This document shows, in pieces, positions 22,197-47,887 of a stretch of DNA of 64,000 nt. A model generated the notes under the pieces. That model ran no database searches. It was not told the origin of the DNA and was given only the letters and a program-made list of their open reading frames with translations. The translations under genes and the position numbers were made by a program. Source of the DNA: Candidatus Moraniibacteriota bacterium (lineage in GTDB: Bacteria > Patescibacteriota > Minisyncoccia > Moranbacterales > UBA1568). Location: contig JAHBAT020000003.1 of assembly GCA_018499985.2 (NCBI GenBank), forward strand, positions 1-64,000. Direction: 5' to 3'. How positions within the stretch are numbered: position 1 is the first letter of the stretch; each line of letters starts with the position of its first letter.

Positions 22197-23282
22197 CTAA
22201 AGTTCAAGAGGAATAGTATCTATTTCATATTTTTTGAGAGCGCCTTGTACATCATCCACAAACTGAGCCGTAACACCCAAAAGAGCCTGCATACGAGAAA
22301 GCGCCGCTATCTGCCCAATCGGATCATCTCCATCTGTTTTGATATCTTTCTTAAGCGAAGCTGCGTACAATCCCATCTTGAGTGCTTTTACATGAATATC
22401 AAGCATGGCCTCTGGCACTTCTACTTTTTTACTTTCATCCAGTATTTTTTGCCCTCTTTCTGCCAAAGCATTTGTAGCTTCCACATTACCATTTGCGAGT
22501 CCAAGGATCGCCTGACTTGAAAGACTATTCATTACTCCCCCAAACTGATCCTCTGTATTAAATTGTGAAGGAGAGTTATTAGCTACAATATATGACATCA
22601 CTGTAAGGTACTCCAAAACATCTTTTTTTTCTTGAGACTTTCTTTCTTTTTCTTTCAAGTTTTTTGAAGGTGCTTTTTTAATTTTAATCTCCTTCATATC
22701 AACCTCTGGAAGAATAACCTCTGTATTGTTACCACTCATAGCCTGTTCAACAGCACTATTGATTTGATCAAAAGTTACCTCTTTATTGTCATCTGTAACA
22801 CCAGAAAGAACTCCTGCTATTTGAACAGAGACTTTGTTTGTAAGATTATCTTCCGGTGCACTTGATACACTCTCTTTCGCCTTATCTTCAATCTTTACTA
22901 TTCTATCTCCAGGAGCCGGAACCAAAGGATTGTAACCACTTTCGATTTCTACACCATCTGAATATCCGTCTCCATCTGTATCTGCCTTGTTGGCATCAGT
23001 ACCGTAGAGCTTTTCTTCCTGAAGAGAAAGATTATCCTGATCAGCATCTACAAAAATATTTTTACCACTTGTTTGAGATTCTCCACGGACAGCATAAAAA
23101 GTACACCCGAAAAAGAGAACTAGAAACAAAAGAAAAGTTTTTCGCTCTTTAAATAAAGAAAATATAAATGACATATTTTTTGTTTTTTCTATTATATCAC
23201 TCGTAGCTACATCTTTCAAAATATTTTCTCTACCCGCAATATTACCAATATTTATTATGCAATATAAATTATTTATTGTCAA
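22197..23282 (-). CDS. Secreted protein with thrombospondin type-3-like/EF-hand-like calcium-binding repeat
   Basis: DADQDNLSLQEEKLYGTDANKADTDGDGYSDGVEIESGYNPLVP. Confidence 0.75.
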   Translation of the reverse strand: MTINNLYCIINIGNIAGRENILKDVATSDIIEKTKNMSFIFSLFKERKTFLLFLVLFFGCTFYAVRGESQTSGKNIFVDADQDNLSLQEEKLYGTDANKADTDGDGYSDGVEIESGYNPLVPAPGDRIVKIEDKAKESVSSAPEDNLTNKVSVQIAGVLSGVTDDNKEVTFDQINSAVEQAMSGNNTEVILPEVDMKEIKIKKAPSKNLKEKERKSQEKKDVLEYLTVMSYIVANNSPSQFNTEDQFGGVMNSLSSQAILGLANGNVEATNALAERGQKILDESKKVEVPEAMLDIHVKALKMGLYAASLKKDIKTDGDDPIGQIAALSRMQALLGVTAQFVDDVQGALKKYEIDTIPLEL

Positions 23283-24618
23283 GTACTAATGTATTCACAC
23301 TTCCCAAGGCTAAGAAGATCCAAAAAAGGAAAATTCCCTGCGGAAGAGTAAAGAAATAATGATCTCCTAAAGCCAGGATTAGGATAAATACTATCATCAA
23401 CTGTGATCCACATCTCTGTTTCACGTGAAACATTTTTTTTGAAGAGGAGAAGAGTACACCTAAAAAAAGATACGTGTAGACAAGAAGCCCAAAAATACCC
23501 AACTCCCCCAAAACTATCAGAAGGCCGCTATGGACAGGTTGCATGACCCATGGATTCATTGAGGCTTTTAAAGATAGCTCTTGGTAGAAATAACTTGTTC
23601 CGATACCATTTCCAAAAAATGTCACTGCGTTTGTCTTGGCATATTCAATAAGGGAAAATTCTCTTTCATTAAAACTTTTTTGATTCAAAAAAATAATTAT
23701 TCCAAAAATAACTATGGCCAGAATCAGATGTTTCACGTGAAACATATTTCTGTATTTCTCTTTTGTTTCACGTGAAACACTAAGTAAATAAAGGATTCCC
23801 CCTAAAATTAGGGCCACTTTTGAAAATGTTAGAAATAAAGCGATGCTTATGAAAAAGATTCCTAATTGTTTCACGTGAAACATACTAGTAAGTCTACTCC
23901 ATTTTGTTTCACGTGAAACAAAAAAGTCTCTGAAAAGAAATGCCATTGTTAAAGTAAGCAATAGAAAAGCCGCCAAAACATTTGGATGAGGAAAAAGACC
24001 ATAAGCTCGCAGTATTTTATCACCAAAAAAGTTTATTGTAGCAATATTTTGAGATCCAATCTGCAAATGACTTTCACCCAAAAAATATAAATACACATCT
24101 CTCTGGGCAAAAAATTGCAAAATCGCAATAAAAGCATTAAATAGGGCCGAAATATACAGACTCTCTAAAAATAACTGGAAATAATTAGTAAATTTCCATG
24201 TTTCACGTGAAACAATCTTATTTTCTTGTTTCACGTGAAACAAGAAAAGAGTGATTATTCCATAATAAAGAATAATTGCTTCAAAATAAAAAAGAGTATG
24301 CCTAAGAGAAAGGGTTTTATCAGGAGAAAAAATAATTGAGAGTAGACTCAAAATCAAAACAGTTAGGGGAGCAAGTATCTGTATTCTGTTTTGTTTCACG
24401 TGAAACATTTCCCGTATACTTGACAATAGTATACTTTCATTGTATATTATTATGAAAAGTATGACGAGGAATGCTATATCGAATGCGTAGATCGATATAT
24501 CTAAATATTCACTATAAAAAAGGCTTCCGAGAACATTCGGGATCAAAACATACTGCACATTCAAGAGAAAGCTTATCCCTAAGAAAATCAGGCTGATTTT
24601 TTTGAAAAAAATACTCAC
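23269..24618 (-). CDS. O-antigen ligase/polymerase-like multi-TM protein carrying eight embedded parS-type sites
   Basis: Multi-TM ORF; late segment LRAYGLFPHPNVLAAFLLLTLTM and FFGNGIGTSYFYQELSLK...QPVHSGLLIVLGELGIFGLLVY is typical of Wzy/O-antigen ligases. Confidence 0.82.
   Translation of the reverse strand: MSIFFKKISLIFLGISFLLNVQYVLIPNVLGSLFYSEYLDISIYAFDIAFLVILFIIIYNESILLSSIREMFHVKQNRIQILAPLTVLILSLLSIIFSPDKTLSLRHTLFYFEAIILYYGIITLFLFHVKQENKIVSRETWKFTNYFQLFLESLYISALFNAFIAILQFFAQRDVYLYFLGESHLQIGSQNIATINFFGDKILRAYGLFPHPNVLAAFLLLTLTMAFLFRDFFVSRETKWSRLTSMFHVKQLGIFFISIALFLTFSKVALILGGILYLLSVSRETKEKYRNMFHVKHLILAIVIFGIIIFLNQKSFNEREFSLIEYAKTNAVTFFGNGIGTSYFYQELSLKASMNPWVMQPVHSGLLIVLGELGIFGLLVYTYLFLGVLFSSSKKMFHVKQRCGSQLMIVFILILALGDHYFFTLPQGIFLFWIFLALGSVNTLVLDNK
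23417..23432. promoter_or_regulatory. parS-type site TGTTTCACGTGAAACA (1)
   Basis: Exact 16-bp palindrome. Confidence 0.9.
23729..23744. promoter_or_regulatory. parS-type site TGTTTCACGTGAAACA (2)
   Basis: Exact 16-bp palindrome. Confidence 0.9.
23764..23779. promoter_or_regulatory. parS-type site TGTTTCACGTGAAACA (3)
   Basis: Exact 16-bp palindrome. Confidence 0.9.
23867..23882. promoter_or_regulatory. parS-type site TGTTTCACGTGAAACA (4)
   Basis: Exact 16-bp palindrome. Confidence 0.9.
23905..23920. promoter_or_regulatory. parS-type site TGTTTCACGTGAAACA (5)
   Basis: Exact 16-bp palindrome. Confidence 0.9.
24199..24214. promoter_or_regulatory. parS-type site TGTTTCACGTGAAACA (6)
   Basis: Exact 16-bp palindrome. 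Confidence 0.9.
24227..24242. promoter_or_regulatory. parS-type site TGTTTCACGTGAAACA (7)
   Basis: Exact 16-bp palindrome. Confidence 0.9.
24392..24407. promoter_or_regulatory. parS-type site TGTTTCACGTGAAACA (8)
   Basis: Exact 16-bp palindrome. Confidence 0.9.
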
Positions 24619-24723: not shown

Positions 24724-24796
24724 GGGCCTTTAGCTCATCTGGTAGAGCGCTCCCATGGCATGGGAGAGGTGAGCGGTTCGAGTCCGCTAAGGTCCA
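24724..24796 (+). tRNA. tRNA-Ala(GGC)
   Basis: Acceptor GGGCCTT/AAGGTCC, anticodon loop ATGGCAT. Confidence 0.93.
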
Positions 24797-24853
24797 CACT
24801 GATTGTGTATACGTCTGTATAAGTATATATTTTTCTTTATTAGAGCCATAAAT

Positions 24854-24925
24854 GCCTCCATAGCTCAATGGATAGAGCTGCTCCGTCCTAAGGAGAAAAT
24901 CTGGGTTCGATTCCTGGTGGGGGCA
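24854..24925 (+). tRNA. tRNA-Arg(CCT)
   Basis: Acceptor GCCTCCA/TGGGGGC, anticodon stem CTCC/GGAG with loop GTCCTAA. Confidence 0.87.
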
Positions 24926-24996
24926 CACCAAACATCCCTTGGCATCTTGTACAAAAGGTGCTAGACTGCTTCGTTACTCTCTAGCATACAACTCCC

Positions 24997-25329
24997 ATGT
25001 CACTTCGTATTACCAAAGTCAATGATCTCTTGCGAGATTTGATTTCTGAAGCCCTTGTATCAGAGGTTTCCTTTAAGCAGGGTGTTTTTGCGACTGTTAC
25101 AAAGATTCGTACTTCCAAAGATCTTCGTCAGGCCTTTTTTTCTGTCAGCATATTTCCTGAATCAGAGACTCACTATGTCGAAGAAACTCTTAAAAAAGAA
25201 CTTTCCCAAATAGAGAAGTTTGTTCATGGTCGTCTCTATATGAAACCTCTTCCCCGTTTGAAATTTGAAGTAGACAGTACAGCACTTAATGCTGATGCTG
25301 TAGAAAAAATACTCTTCTCTCTTTCCTAA
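24997..25329 (+). CDS. rbfA: Ribosome-binding factor A
   Basis: RITKVNDLLRDLISEAL...VTKIRTSKDLRQAFFSVS...LPRLKFEVD. Confidence 0.9.
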   Translation: MSLRITKVNDLLRDLISEALVSEVSFKQGVFATVTKIRTSKDLRQAFFSVSIFPESETHYVEETLKKELSQIEKFVHGRLYMKPLPRLKFEVDSTALNADAVEKILFSLS

Positions 25330-25332
25330 GCT

Positions 25333-26292
25333 ATGCAGAAGTTTGATTCTCAGTTTAAAACGCTTGAGTACATTGTCGCTAAAGCTGAAAATATCCTCCT
25401 GGTAGCTCACACCCGGCCCGATCCTGACACAGTCGGTTCAAACAGTGCTTTTCATGAGCACTTAGTTGCTCTGGGAAAAAACGTTACTATCGCTTGCTAC
25501 GATGAATTTCCGCAAGTTCTCTTGCCACTTGGTGAAAAAAAATTTGTTCATCCAGAAACCCTGGACCTCAAACCTTTTGACGCTGTTTTTGCTCTAGACA
25601 GTGTTGACAGGGGATTCCATCTTTTTCGAGAGAAGCTTAGCGATGATCAAGTTGTTGTGCTCATGGACCATCATCCAGACATAGAACTTCTCGGGGATGT
25701 GGTCATTATTGATGCAGATTACTCATCTACAAGTGAGCTCCTCTATCTTTATTTCAAGCAAACTGGAGCAAGAATCACCAAGCGTATGGCTACATACTTA
25801 CTTGCGGGTCTCGTTTTTGATACCGGGGGATTTAAGCACTCTAAAGTGACTCCCGCAGTGATGGAAATGGCCTCTACTCTGATGCAAAAGGGCGCCCCTC
25901 TCGATAAAGTCTCTCAGATAATTTTTGCTCATCGCAATATCGCTGCTCTTCGTCTATGGGGAAAGGCTATAGAAAAAGCTCGTCTTTATCCAGAAAATGG
26001 CATGCTTGTAACTGCTGTCACCCAAGAAGAGATTCTCGAGTGCGAAGCTTCAGCTGAAGACATCTATCAAGTCACATCTATTCTCAGTACCGTCCCTGAT
26101 GCCAAATTTGCCCTTGTGCTCTCTGAAAGAGACGCTTCTACTGTACGTGGTAGCTTACGCTCCATGGATCACCATGGAGTCGATGTTTCTCAAATTGCCC
26201 ATGCCTTTGGTGGGGGAGGCCACGTGCTTGCGAGTGGCTTTGAAATACCTGGTAAAATAGTTGATACTGGTGAAGGCTTCCTTATTATGTAA
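25333..26292 (+). CDS. DHH-family phosphoesterase (NrnA-like)
   Basis: VAHTRPDPDTVGSNSAF, MDHHPDIE, C-terminal AFGGGGHVLASGF. Confidence 0.93.
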   Translation: MQKFDSQFKTLEYIVAKAENILLVAHTRPDPDTVGSNSAFHEHLVALGKNVTIACYDEFPQVLLPLGEKKFVHPETLDLKPFDAVFALDSVDRGFHLFREKLSDDQVVVLMDHHPDIELLGDVVIIDADYSSTSELLYLYFKQTGARITKRMATYLLAGLVFDTGGFKHSKVTPAVMEMASTLMQKGAPLDKVSQIIFAHRNIAALRLWGKAIEKARLYPENGMLVTAVTQEEILECEASAEDIYQVTSILSTVPDAKFALVLSERDASTVRGSLRSMDHHGVDVSQIAHAFGGGGHVLASGFEIPGKIVDTGEGFLIM

Positions 26293-26297
26293 TCGCT

Positions 26298-26864
26298 ATG
26301 CAACAAGAAAAACTTGCTGCTCTTCATAAAAAATTTGATCAAATAAATACCTCTGGCCTCAAAAAAACAGCCACTCAGGCTGTTTTTGGTCATGGCAATG
26401 CTTTGTCTGATATTATTTTCATCGGAGAAGCTCCTGGTAAAAGTGAGGATATTTCCGGCAAACCTTTTGTAGGAGCCTCTGGAAAGTTTCTTGATGAAAT
26501 GCTTACAAGCATCAAACTTTCACGAGAGGATGTGTATATTACCAATATCGTGAAATACCGTCCTCCTGAAAACAGAGACCCCTCCAAAGATGAAATAGCC
26601 GCTTGCAAAGCCTGGCTTCATGCTGAGCTACAATTAATCCAGCCAAAACTCGTCATCACTCTCGGACGCTATGCTCTCAATCACTTTATTCCAGATGTCA
26701 AAATAGGGGAAGTTCATGGAAAATCTTTTACAAAAAATATTCCTGGTCTTGGAGAACAAACTTTTTTTGCCCTCTATCACCCAGCAGCCGCACTCTACAA
26801 TGGCAATATGCGAGAAACTTTACTCAAAGATTTCAAAAAAATAACAAGACTTCTGAAAAAATAA
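26298..26864 (+). CDS. Uracil-DNA glycosylase (family 4-like)
   Basis: IFIGEAPGKSEDISGKPFVGASGKFLDEML, NIVKYRPPENRDP, YHPAAALYN. Confidence 0.93.
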   Translation: MQQEKLAALHKKFDQINTSGLKKTATQAVFGHGNALSDIIFIGEAPGKSEDISGKPFVGASGKFLDEMLTSIKLSREDVYITNIVKYRPPENRDPSKDEIAACKAWLHAELQLIQPKLVITLGRYALNHFIPDVKIGEVHGKSFTKNIPGLGEQTFFALYHPAAALYNGNMRETLLKDFKKITRLLKK

Positions 26865-37620: not shown

Positions 37621-38838
37621 CTAAGCCCCCTCCCCCTGTCTCATACTATAGGCATACGTCAGGTACGCCTGTGTCCAAAACAAAAAAGCAAGATCATTCC
37701 TAAAATAGGGTGTATCAAATAGCCCGTACAAGAAAAAACTCACCCAAAGTGCCACAAGCACAAGGGCTTCTTTGTTTTTATCAAGATTATCTCGCCTCAT
37801 TCTCTGCCAAAAAATAAAACCTAATCTACCAAAGATAGTACCTATACCCAAAAGCCCAAGCAATCCTGCCTGAAGCCAAACAGCAAGTATAAAATTATGT
37901 GGCTGTGGCACAGCCCATTCAAGGTACGGAGGAAACTTTTCTTGATATTTTAAATATACCTCTTGAAAATTTCCTATACCAACTCCATTTATTGGATGGT
38001 CCTTAGCTATAGTCAGAGCTGATTGCCAAATCATAAGACGAGAATGTACAGAAGACCGTCCATTTTGACTGAAAATATCCTTCCATTTTGGCTCATCCTT
38101 TTCCGAAAACACAAAAAGACTTATAGCCACAGCAATTAGGGCAATGATACTTAAAAATCTTTTTAAGGAAAGCTGTTTTTTTCGTAGAAAAGTGCTGAGA
38201 AAAAAAGTCATGCTCACAGCACCTGCTCCTAAAAGAGCAATCCAAGCATTGTACGAATGTGTTTGATAGAGTACGAAAGCGCTTATACCTACTAGAAAAA
38301 GAACTCCTTTTCTTTGCCATCCAGATCCTTTGTATAGCAAGAAGGAGCCAATGAAGATAGCTGGCGTTACCAAATAGGCCAGAAAATTTGGCGACGTATA
38401 CGGAAAGGCGAGACGCTCGTCATAGGTAAGATACCCTCGGAAATAGCCGAGGAGAGCTATCAGCGAAATCAGAGAGCTCCCCAAAAACCAACCTCTCCAC
38501 ATGGCCACCCTCTTATCAAAAGAAAAAAGACTTAGTGCCAAAAAGAAATAGAGCACTGGAAAGAAAAACCATGATTTTAGCATGCCTAATTCAGTATATC
38601 CCCATGAATTAAGCAGTGTAGAAAAAAGAGCGCCTGCCAAAAAAATAAAACTGCCAAAAAGAATACCCTTATCTATTTTCTTCATTTCTGACTTCACTTT
38701 TTCTTTCAAAAGAATTCCAAGGGTCAGCAAAAAGATAATTTCCAACCCATACAGGGGCATTCCTCCAATCACAATTTTTTCTAGAGCCAAGAATTGAAAA
38801 AAAATAATACACGGAAAGATTTTATCGAAAGTAATCAT
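37621..38838 (-). CDS. O-antigen ligase family protein
   Basis: Multi-TM; ALTIAKDHPINGVGIGNFQEVY...PQPHNFILAVWLQAGLLGLLG. Confidence 0.85.
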   Translation of the reverse strand: MITFDKIFPCIIFFQFLALEKIVIGGMPLYGLEIIFLLTLGILLKEKVKSEMKKIDKGILFGSFIFLAGALFSTLLNSWGYTELGMLKSWFFFPVLYFFLALSLFSFDKRVAMWRGWFLGSSLISLIALLGYFRGYLTYDERLAFPYTSPNFLAYLVTPAIFIGSFLLYKGSGWQRKGVLFLVGISAFVLYQTHSYNAWIALLGAGAVSMTFFLSTFLRKKQLSLKRFLSIIALIAVAISLFVFSEKDEPKWKDIFSQNGRSSVHSRLMIWQSALTIAKDHPINGVGIGNFQEVYLKYQEKFPPYLEWAVPQPHNFILAVWLQAGLLGLLGIGTIFGRLGFIFWQRMRRDNLDKNKEALVLVALWVSFFLYGLFDTPYFRNDLAFLFWTQAYLTYAYSMRQGEGA

Positions 38839-38842
38839 ACTT

Positions 38843-40099
38843 TTACGTTTTTATGTCACTTTTCACAAAACAGGCAGCTATTATCAAAAGAAAAACTGGT
38901 AAAACGTGCACAGAGAAAATTGGCGCCTCAAAAAATCCATGCACAAGGAAATACACCAAGGCTATATGTAGAGCCAAATAAAATGGGTCTTTACTCAATT
39001 TCCATTTTTGAAAACTTTCGAAGAGGGCTCCAAATACAGCTATCAGGAAAAGACTTAGTCCGACAAGTCCAAGCTCTGCCGCTATATCGAGATACAGGTT
39101 GTGCGCATAGATTGGCTCCCTCGATAGAGCTTCAGGCTTTACCCAAAGTGGGTAATTACCTACACCGACACCCAAAAATGGTCGCTCTCTGATAGCTTCC
39201 AGAGCTGTATAAGCCAACTGTACCCTCTCGCTACGGGAGCCATCACCTGAAGTAAAACTTGAAATAAAACGATTGCCTACAGGAGAAACAAGAGCAAAAA
39301 GGGAGATACTGCTTGCTGCTATTATCCATAAAGCTATTTTTTGTTTTTTCTCAAAAAAGAATATGAGTAGCAAAAACCATAAAAAGCTCGCTGCAATTGC
39401 CACATAACCACCTCGGGAAAATGAAAGAAGTAAACCTAAAAATAAAAGCAACGATACCAAACGAGACCAACCAAAAAAATTCTTTTTCCAATAAAGACAT
39501 GTAAAAGGGATAGCCATGGCAACATAATAGCTGAAAATATGCGGGTCTGGAAAAAAACCAGTGGCACGAAAATACGTTTTTCCTAAAATATTCACCAATA
39601 AGCTCGGGTATGTCGCTACTGAAGCAGCAAAATTACTTCCAAGAAAAAATGGCAGCAGCTTCTCTGTCCAAAAAAGTAGCACCACTCCAGGATCTACTAC
39701 TAACTGTAAAAGACTCTGTAAAATAGCAACCGAAGAAATACCGACCGCCCCACCAACATACCAGCGAAAAATCCTTTTAAAAGTAGTTTCCTTTTGTCCA
39801 ATGAGAACAATGAATAAAAGGAGAAAATTTATTAAGAAAAAGATTTTTCTATATGACCAGCCTGGATCAATAGCCCAAACAAAAGAAAGGGTACTCCAAA
39901 AAAACCAGCCAAGAAAGGCAAATGTCGACAAAGATAAACTTATAAAGAAACTCTTTTTCAACAAAACCTGTCCCATAAAAAAGAAAAAAAGGGCTATTAT
40001 AACAATTCGTATAATAGGCAAGTCTACAGATGCTATTGGATTTAAAGCAAAGTTAAGAGGAAGGAGGAGATAGAAATAGCTAAGCAAAGCAAGTATCAT
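38843..40099 (-). CDS. O-antigen ligase family protein
   Basis: Multi-TM; ALEAIRERPFLGVGVGNYPLW...YAHNLYLDIAAELGLVGL. Confidence 0.87.
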   Translation of the reverse strand: MILALLSYFYLLLPLNFALNPIASVDLPIIRIVIIALFFFFMGQVLLKKSFFISLSLSTFAFLGWFFWSTLSFVWAIDPGWSYRKIFFLINFLLLFIVLIGQKETTFKRIFRWYVGGAVGISSVAILQSLLQLVVDPGVVLLFWTEKLLPFFLGSNFAASVATYPSLLVNILGKTYFRATGFFPDPHIFSYYVAMAIPFTCLYWKKNFFGWSRLVSLLLFLGLLLSFSRGGYVAIAASFLWFLLLIFFFEKKQKIALWIIAASSISLFALVSPVGNRFISSFTSGDGSRSERVQLAYTALEAIRERPFLGVGVGNYPLWVKPEALSREPIYAHNLYLDIAAELGLVGLSLFLIAVFGALFESFQKWKLSKDPFYLALHIALVYFLVHGFFEAPIFSVHVLPVFLLIIAACFVKSDIKT

Positions 40100-45049: not shown

Positions 45050-46492
45050 ATGACTCACGATGACCTCTGGAAGGCTGTCCTTGGCCAAATTGAACTTTCC
45101 CTTTCGAAAGCCAACTTTATTACCTGGTTTAAAAACACCAACCTTTTAGAGGTCAGTGATGGCAAGGCCCTTATTGGTGTGCCGAATGGTTTTGCTAAAG
45201 AATGGCTAGAAAACAAGTATAATACCCATATTTTAAAAGCCCTTCGGACCCTTGATCCTTCAATTCAAAGCATCCGTTGCACTATTTCTCTCTCTGATCC
45301 ACACACAAACCAGCAGCCCAAACCTATTAGCCGTTCTATTGACGCTGCCATTCCTCGGAACGAAAACACTGAGACGGCCAATAGTTTTGTACGAAAAAAG
45401 CTCATAGAAAAACCTTCATTTTCATCTGAAGGTACTTCTGTCTCTCTTCAAAAAGAGGTTTTTCATGAGAGCAGCCTTAATTCTCGCTATACTTTTGAAA
45501 ATTACATTGTTGCGGAGAACAATGAACTTGCTCACGCCGCCTGCCACGCCGTCTCTCAAAACCTTGGTATGCTTTACAACCCTCTCTTTATTTATGGTGG
45601 CGTAGGCTTAGGAAAAACCCATCTTTTACAGTCTATTGGCAATGAAGTAATGCGCAATCATCCCGAAAAACGCATTAAATACATTACCTCTGAGCGTTTT
45701 ACCACAGAACTTGTTGATTCTATTAAAAATCAAAAAATTGACATCTTTAAAGAATATTATCAGCAAATGGACCTCCTTATTATAGATGATGTTCAATTTC
45801 TTTCTGGGAGAGAAAAAACTCAAAATGAGTTTTTTCATATTTTTAACGCTCTCTACCAAATAAACAAGCAGATTGTTATCTCTAGCGATCGTCCACCTAA
45901 AGCTATTGGTACTCTTGAAGAACGTCTCCGTTCTCGCTTTGAGGGTGGAATGATTACAGATATCAGTCAACCAAGCCTTGAAACTCGTATTGCTATTCTT
46001 AGTTCAAAAGTTCAAGAAAAAGGTCTTTCTATCGATGAGGACGCCCTTCGTTTTATAGCTCAAAATATCAACCAAAATGTTCGCGAACTTGAAGGTGCTC
46101 TCAATCGCGTAATTGCTTATTGTGATTTTCGTAAAATACCTGCCAACTTAGCTAATACAGAAAAAATTCTTGTTGAACTCCTTGAAAAAAACCGTAAAAA
46201 TATCAGTACTGAGAGTGTTTTTAGCACTATTTGTGAGTATTACTCTGTAGAACATGAAGATTTAATTAAAAAAGGGCGTAAAAAGGAAATTTCTCATCCT
46301 CGTCAGGTTCTTATGTACATCTTAAGACAAGAACTCTCTACCCCATTTTCTACTATTGGCGACATGCTTGGAGGAAGAGATCATACCACTGTACTTCATG
46401 CTTTTGAAAAAATAAACAAAGAAAAAGAAACTTCTCCTAAGATAAAAGAGGAATTAAACCAAATCAAAGAGCGCCTTTATTATATTTCTTAG
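45050..46492 (+). CDS. dnaA: Chromosomal replication initiator DnaA
   Basis: NPLFIYGGVGLGKTHLLQSIGNEV, LLIIDDVQFLSGREKTQNEFFHIFNAL, GGRDHTTVLHAFEKI. Confidence 0.99.
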   Translation: MTHDDLWKAVLGQIELSLSKANFITWFKNTNLLEVSDGKALIGVPNGFAKEWLENKYNTHILKALRTLDPSIQSIRCTISLSDPHTNQQPKPISRSIDAAIPRNENTETANSFVRKKLIEKPSFSSEGTSVSLQKEVFHESSLNSRYTFENYIVAENNELAHAACHAVSQNLGMLYNPLFIYGGVGLGKTHLLQSIGNEVMRNHPEKRIKYITSERFTTELVDSIKNQKIDIFKEYYQQMDLLIIDDVQFLSGREKTQNEFFHIFNALYQINKQIVISSDRPPKAIGTLEERLRSRFEGGMITDISQPSLETRIAILSSKVQEKGLSIDEDALRFIAQNINQNVRELEGALNRVIAYCDFRKIPANLANTEKILVELLEKNRKNISTESVFSTICEYYSVEHEDLIKKGRKKEISHPRQVLMYILRQELSTPFSTIGDMLGGRDHTTVLHAFEKINKEKETSPKIKEELNQIKERLYYIS

Positions 46493-46676
46493 TGTATAAG
46501 TCTGTATAAAGTTCAAAATAGAGAGGATAACCTCTGGAAAAGATGCGGATAAAAATAAACACAAACAAACCTTCTCATTGTCTAATATATTTTTAATCCT
46601 TTATCCGTATATTAGCCACCCTATAAAAAGAGTTCTTGCTTCACTTTAAATCCTTTTATTAAGCTATAAAATTGAC

Positions 46677-46693
46677 TTATCCAGTTATCCACA
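46677..46693 (+). promoter_or_regulatory. DnaA box cluster (TTATCCAGTTATCCACA)
   Basis: One near-match and one exact box in the dnaA-dnaN spacer. Confidence 0.75.
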
Positions 46694-46732
46694 GCCCTAA
46701 TATATAATAACTATTCTTTTTAAAAAATATAT

Positions 46733-47887
46733 ATGAAACTCATTTGCACACAAGAAAATCTCACCCAAGCCCTCAATGCTCTTGATCGAGTAGTGGGAAA
46801 ACAAAGCTCTTTGCCAATACTCAGTAACTTTCTTTTTGAGTCAGAAAATGGAAGGTTAAAAATATCTGCTACAAATCTAGAGATAGGTATTATAGTTTTT
46901 GTAGGAGCAAAAATTGAAAAAGAAGGTAAGTTTGCCGTGCCAGCACGTATACTCTCTCAGTTTGTACAGAATTTACCCCAAGGAGAGGTTTTGGAGCTTG
47001 AACTAAAGGATGGGCAGCTTTTACTAAAGAGTGGTAGTTCAGATATGAAAATAAAGGTTTTGGATGGTAAGGATTTTCCTATTATCCCTACATTTAAAAA
47101 AGAATACCCAGTTATTTTATTAGCTCAACCAATTAAACAGGCGCTTTCGAGACTTCTTTTTTGTGCAAGTAATAATGAATCCCGTATAGAGCTAACAGGC
47201 GCTCAGTTCCTTTTTGAAGAAAAGCAGCTTTCTATCGCAGCAACAGATAGTTTTCGTCTTGCTGAAGAGGTTTTGAAATACAATCAAGCTAAAGAGAGTA
47301 TTTTAAATGGAGAAGAAAGTAAGAGTCTTATTATTCCAATTAACACACTACAAGAAATATCAAGATCCATAACACCTGAAGTAGAAGAGCTGAAAGTAGC
47401 AATTGAAGAACATCAGCTTTTTTTTGAAATTGATAATGTGCAAATTGTTTCACGTATTATTAACGGGCGTTTCCCTGATTATAAACAAATTATCCCAAAA
47501 GAGTTTCTTTTAAGGGTAGCTTTAGAGAAAGAGGCTCTTATTCGCTCACTAAAGATAGCAAGTACTCTTTCAGCTTATAATACTGGTGAAATTGCTCTTA
47601 TCTTCAATCCAGAAGAAGAAAACTGTACAGTAATCTCTAAATCACAAGAAATTGGAGAAAATAGCAGTGTCTTAATGGGAGATTTTTTGAAAGGAGCAGG
47701 CCCACTGACACTTATTTTTAATCCGCGGTATCTTTTAGAGGGATTGAGCGCCTTTTCTTCAAAGAAGATAGTTTTTTCTGCTAATACCTCATCAAGCCCA
47801 GCTACTTTTGAGGCGTTAGAGGAAAATGAAGAAAACAAAGCGGAATACGTCTATGTGATGATGCCTATTCGTAAGGAGTATGCGTAA
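46733..47887 (+). CDS. dnaN: DNA polymerase III beta subunit (sliding clamp)
   Basis: LDRVVGKQSSLPILSNFLFE, NGRFPDYKQIIP, C-terminal YVMMPIR. Confidence 0.97.
   Translation: MKLICTQENLTQALNALDRVVGKQSSLPILSNFLFESENGRLKISATNLEIGIIVFVGAKIEKEGKFAVPARILSQFVQNLPQGEVLELELKDGQLLLKSGSSDMKIKVLDGKDFPIIPTFKKEYPVILLAQPIKQALSRLLFCASNNESRIELTGAQFLFEEKQLSIAATDSFRLAEEVLKYNQAKESILNGEESKSLIIPINTLQEISRSITPEVEELKVAIEEHQLFFEIDNVQIVSRIINGRFPDYKQIIPKEFLLRVALEKEALIRSLKIASTLSAYNTGEIALIFNPEEENCTVISKSQEIGENSSVLMGDFLKGAGPLTLIFNPRYLLEGLSAFSSKKIVFSANTSSSPATFEALEENEENKAEYVYVMMPIRKEYA

Follow-up and report, generated by a model that had tools for sequence, protein, structure and literature searches.

The window analysed here is a stretch of 64,000 nucleotides (contig 16 in our numbering) from the 891,858-bp genome of a small uncultured bacterium of the Moranbacteria kind, a member of the Patescibacteria, whose assembly comprises 24 contigs and is 98.6% complete. 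The feature of interest is an open reading frame at 23269-24618 on the minus strand, which begins with a GTG start codon and encodes a 449-aa O-antigen ligase-like (Wzy_C/WaaL-like) membrane protein. On one side lies a TSP3-repeat protein (22197-23282, minus strand; PF18884), a conserved neighbour that serves as a marker of chromosomal position. On the other side are tRNA-Ala(ggc) and tRNA-Arg(cct) (24724-24926, plus strand; ARAGORN), followed by conserved RbfA-, DHH- and uracil-DNA-glycosylase (UDG)-like genes (24997-26864, plus strand), whose names were read from the sequence and not scanned against a library. The dnaA and dnaN genes (45050-47887, plus strand), together with a cumulative GC-skew minimum at 46-47 kb, mark the likely replication origin about 21 kb away. 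Two further Wzy/ligase-like genes between the membrane-protein gene and dnaA (37621-38838 and 38843-40099, both minus strand) carry no parS site.

The open reading frame contains eight exact copies of the 16-bp palindrome TGTTTCACGTGAAACA, the consensus of chromosomal parS sites. In shuffled sequence the mean number of matches with up to three mismatches is 0.28, and no shuffle reached the observed 10. Nothing else in the genome matches the 14-bp core with 0 or 1 mismatch. On the coding strand five sites read FHVK and three read VSRET; the third frame would read TGA and stop the gene. The FHVK sites lie at 23417-23432 (residues 396-401, loop 10), 23729-23744 (residues 292-297, loop 8), 23867-23882 (residues 246-251, loop 6), 24227-24242 (residues 126-131, loop 4), and 24392-24407 (residues 71-76, loop 2). 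The VSRET sites lie at 23764-23779 (residues 281-285, loop 8), 23905-23920 (residues 234-238, loop 6), and 24199-24214 (residues 136-140, loop 4). A sequence-only reading had claimed that parS palindromes dictate repeated FHVKQ and VSRET peptides in short charged segments between the hydrophobic helices of this protein; that observation is confirmed, and the peptides it quoted are all present.

The host protein matches PF04932 (O-antigen ligase) with E=7.7e-4, but its 19.7 bits fall below the curated cut-off of 31.7; 12 of 16 orthologues match the profile at E<=1e-3. A sequence search of the PDB returned nothing. An AlphaFold2 model (m618b78153a79; mean pLDDT 70.7) can be read as 12 membrane helices, and its only significant match among solved structures is the WaaL ligase 7tpg (prob 1.00, TM 0.52/0.57). 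Ligase activity was not assayed. According to this model, the eight sites occupy exactly the five even-numbered loops, after helices 2, 4, 6, 8, and 10, all on the N-terminal face. Across 16 orthologues, 121 of 126 sites are in even loops, and the five exceptions are all in loop 9. That the even face is cytoplasmic follows from the topology of WaaL and is inferred, and the helix assignment is our own reading of the model. The large loops 5 and 9, which carry conserved motifs (SYG..HPN and QPVHN), are on the opposite face. The site-bearing loops are short and polar or charged: flanking hydropathy averages -0.11 against 0.93 for the rest of the protein (p=0.0045). Low-confidence stretches of the model coincide with the site peptides, covering 26 of 45 site residues against 12% of the protein.

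Whether the peptides are insertions relative to homologues without parS had been proposed in advance as a check. Across homologues, segments with sites are longer by about 10-15 aa per site, and net insertion is seen in the siblings. In the window protein, however, the site-bearing segments are about as long as the site-free baseline, so the peptides are not net insertions here. Modules with several sites are copied between loops in relatives, including a 172-nt block at 98% identity in G006 and a 112-nt block at 95% identity in G010 (G numbers denote the genomes searched, L numbers individual loci, f numbers families, and g numbers genera). Within loops of two congeners (L110 8870-10855 and L089 9799-11748) site spacings are nearly all 1 modulo 3, so that the reading frame rotates through FHVE, VPRGT, and CSTWN; module copying may explain this pattern.

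The pattern GTTYCACGTGRAAC is found in 45 of 57 genomes searched, this one included, and occurs as clusters in most of those inspected. In many relatives the array sits at the same chromosomal place, between RbfA-DHH-UDG and TSP3-PilX?-FtsH. In 16 of the genomes, sites lie inside a Wzy-like open reading frame: 8 sites here; 14, 17, 18, and 13 in congeners; and 1 to 9 in others. In other genomes (e.g., G001, G007, G015, and G017) the same place holds the array without the gene. The position is not universal, as families f4 and f10 carry arrays elsewhere, several of them next to dnaA. Some genomes of the genus and family that had no or almost no sites lack the neighbouring DHH orthologue altogether, which suggests assembly gaps. 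Contigs of several relatives (L113, L114, L111, L115, L118, and L119) begin or end inside or close to the array, as if the repeats break assemblies.

A search for decayed Wzy remnants in the intergenic arrays, with the sites masked, found none, so the direction of change (gene loss versus gene gain) rests on the tree. In the tree of flanking genes, G001, G003, G005, and G007 form a starred clade nested inside gene-bearing congeners. No gene was seen at the locus in G001, G007, and, across a contig break, G005; the G003 contig ends inside the array. The gene was thus probably lost in this clade and the array kept. A separate Wzy tree places the window copy outside its genus on a long branch, and an AU test does not reject the expected place (AU p 0.18 and 0.12), leaving the position of the window protein unresolved. 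Beyond the Moranbacteria, Wzy-like genes host sites in Doudnabacteria and a few other Patescibacteria, and lie beside intergenic sites in others. In a tree of 90 homologues, the 31 site-bearing genes need 5 changes against 26 for shuffled labels. Single parS sites are also read as VSRET inside valyl-tRNA-synthetase-like genes of other Patescibacteria (L285 202-2361 and L287 1776-3014; the gene names are our reading of the sequences), and five intergenic T-type sites spaced exactly 48 bp apart are present in G174 (L300 1501-1706).

The letters of the sites differ between relatives, and it is the DNA, not the peptide, that is kept. In many relatives every site is GTTCCACGTGGAAC (C-type) rather than GTTTCACGTGAAAC (T-type), and the amino acids change with the palindrome (K to E, S to P, E to G). 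T-type sites occur in only two frames (14 and 10), whereas C-type sites occur in all three (28, 38, and 23), reading FHVE, VPRGT, and CSTWN. Of 198 occurrences of these peptides in 31 genes, 193 are encoded by exact sites. The sequence-only reading had named in advance the pattern that would count against it, a conserved peptide with a synonymous change that destroys the palindrome; this pattern, in each case a single synonymous change, accounts for four of the other five occurrences (2% of 198), whereas peptide-only conservation would predict it in most of the 198. Site codons are strongly biased: His is CAC in 73/73 site codons (38% elsewhere), Val is GTG in 73/73 in that frame (19%), Arg is CGT in 85/85 (12%), and Thr is ACG in 37/37 (9%). 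It is therefore very unlikely that FHVK and VSRET are themselves useful in the protein and the palindrome a by-product. The confinement of the peptides to specific loops of one membrane face and their recurrence in orthologues would fit that view, yet orthologues carry other peptides in all three frames while the palindrome is kept, and intergenic arrays of the same sites persist without any protein.

Rates of divergence were compared between pairs of relatives, not with the window gene itself. Site codons have pS 0.00-0.04 in the four best-sampled Moranbacteria pairs (G041/L210, G009/G010, G009/G012, and G010/G012); L196/L227 share few sites and give 0.10, and the single Doudnabacteria pair gives 0.25. 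The protein core evolves at dN/dS 0.10-0.28 where it can be computed, and linkers next to sites at 0.34-0.65. This looks like three regimes side by side: DNA constraint, protein constraint, and relaxed linkers. Several of the pairs are near saturation at synonymous positions, so the ratios are rough, and gene conversion among sites could also lower site pS. None of the 24 alignment columns that are invariant over 16 divergent orthologues, the window included, lies in a parS peptide.

The sequence-only reading had suggested either dual selection or that the gene is now mainly a parS scaffold, and its interpretation is supported in the first of these alternatives. The scaffold alternative is not supported where the reading frame survives, given the core dN/dS in relatives, the invariant columns, and an open reading frame with up to 18 sites in relatives. 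A degenerate gene no longer under selection as a protein is therefore an unlikely explanation, although linkers next to sites evolve fast, and the window branch is long, so that relaxed selection in this one species cannot be excluded. The scaffold idea is half true in another sense, in that several relatives keep the array at the same locus without the gene.

ParB_N was found in 50 of 57 genomes searched. Where the motif was read, ParB carries R173 and G201 (Caulobacter numbering is used for residue 204 below), the parS-type residues of PMC7383237. The residue at Caulobacter position 204, which contacts parS and is conserved in ParB and Noc, is R in the three genomes with pure T-type arrays (3/3) and K in all those with pure C-type arrays (19/19); mixed arrays have K in ten and R in one. 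The ParB loci include L040, L017, L042, L019, and L251-L282. Contrasts fall in the window's genus (G006 against G007 and G012) and in family f10 (G036 and G048 against G042), with a third in genus g4 if the degenerate T-type sites of G027 are counted. This association, a candidate specificity switch, was noticed in the data and then tabulated, and it has not been tested independently. Four genomes of family f11 (G037, G043, G049, and G055) have an R204 ParB but no GTTYCACGTGRAAC site; their parS may differ.

No ParB is found in the assembly of the window's own genome, nor are ParA, FolD, UppP, and a further neighbouring gene (compared with L040 1-12000). G009 also lacks them all, G001 shows only weak matches to the last neighbour, and in G002 parA lies at a contig end. 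The joint absence of the whole neighbourhood points to a gap and makes loss of ParB unlikely, but it is not proof, and the assembly leaves undecided whether a cognate ParB accompanies these sites. The prediction is that this species has an R204 ParB.

Two further readings of the palindromes are very unlikely. The first is a selfish or mutational repeat that happens to look like parS, for which the copying of site-bearing modules between loops in relatives could be cited. However, the copies here are confined to one gene, match the parS consensus exactly, keep one chromosomal place, and co-vary with ParB residue 204. The second is regulation at the RNA level, in which neighbouring sites 28-38 bp apart would pair as inverted repeats to form hairpins in the mRNA; the RNA was not folded here. 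The same arrays persist where no gene is present, and an RNA stem would tolerate other paired sequences, but only the parS letters are seen, and they co-vary with ParB.

The explanation we favour, with high confidence, is that the eight palindromes are the chromosomal centromere (parS array) of a ParABS system, written into the coding sequence of a living O-antigen-ligase-like membrane enzyme. In the inferred mechanism, ParB-CTP loads at the palindromes about 21 kb from oriC, spreads, and lets ParA (and SMC) separate the origins. In this view, the gene stays translatable because the T-type site is open in two of three frames and the C-type site in all three, and the encoded peptides are tolerated because they sit in loops on the N-terminal, presumably cytoplasmic, face, away from the two large loops with the conserved ligase motifs. 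What the comparisons show is that selection acts on the DNA at the sites and on the protein in the core, that linkers are relaxed, that the array can persist without the gene, and that the site sequence co-varies with a DNA-contacting residue of ParB. Segregation itself is inferred: neither ParB binding, whether to TGTTTCACGTGAAACA or to TGTTCCACGTGGAACA, nor any role of the protein in segregation has been shown, and no binding data exist. A bolder, unlikely possibility is that the pairing of centromere and membrane-enzyme gene is functional. Transcription, translation, and membrane insertion of the ligase at the array would then tether the origin region to the membrane, or ParB loading would silence the gene and couple envelope synthesis to segregation. 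This would explain why a Wzy-like gene is the recurring host or neighbour in several Patescibacteria lineages. Why this kind of gene recurs is open; an old neighbourship near the origin is enough, and a functional link is not excluded.

The array shares with other chromosomal parS arrays of ParABS systems the same 16-bp palindrome, clustered near the origin, and relatives with ParB carrying the parS-type residues; it differs in that the whole detected array sits in one membrane-protein gene and that relatives switch to GTTCCACGTGGAAC together with ParB residue 204. Sites within coding sequences are already known. In Pseudomonas aeruginosa nine of ten parS sites are said to be most likely within coding sequences (PMC4368675), but there the ten are reported as separate loci, only four of them close to oriC, whereas here eight lie in the loops of one gene and relatives carry up to 18 in the orthologue. 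Selection for parS even inside coding sequences was proposed for repABC replicons (PMC9040568); replicon type, site sequence, and host genes differ, and no array confined to one gene was described in the parts consulted. Rickettsia palindromic elements are likewise palindromic DNA carried in frame in proteins, but they are longer, dispersed over many genes, and thought selfish, whereas the sites described here are confined to one gene. The host protein resembles the WaaL/Wzy_C family through its only significant fold match, 7tpg, and the PF04932 matches of its orthologues; it differs in that the loops on one face carry parS-encoded peptides and that the window member is below the Pfam cut-off. 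As far as the literature searched shows, a complete array in the loops of one membrane enzyme, its conservation over an order, loop growth in the siblings, and the co-variation with ParB residue 204 are new, and this is a first description of parS arrays in Patescibacteria.

For annotators and motif finders, these findings are a warning that FHVK/E, VSRET, VPRGT, and CSTWN repeats can be parS read through. For the biology of the group, the locus is a clean case of two selection layers in one stretch of DNA, a centromere dictating codons inside a living membrane enzyme. When ParB specificity drifts (R to K at residue 204, T to C in the palindrome), the sites in the array change, and with them amino acids in an unrelated protein. 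This suggests a specificity residue pair for ParB-parS and makes concerted centromere evolution directly testable.
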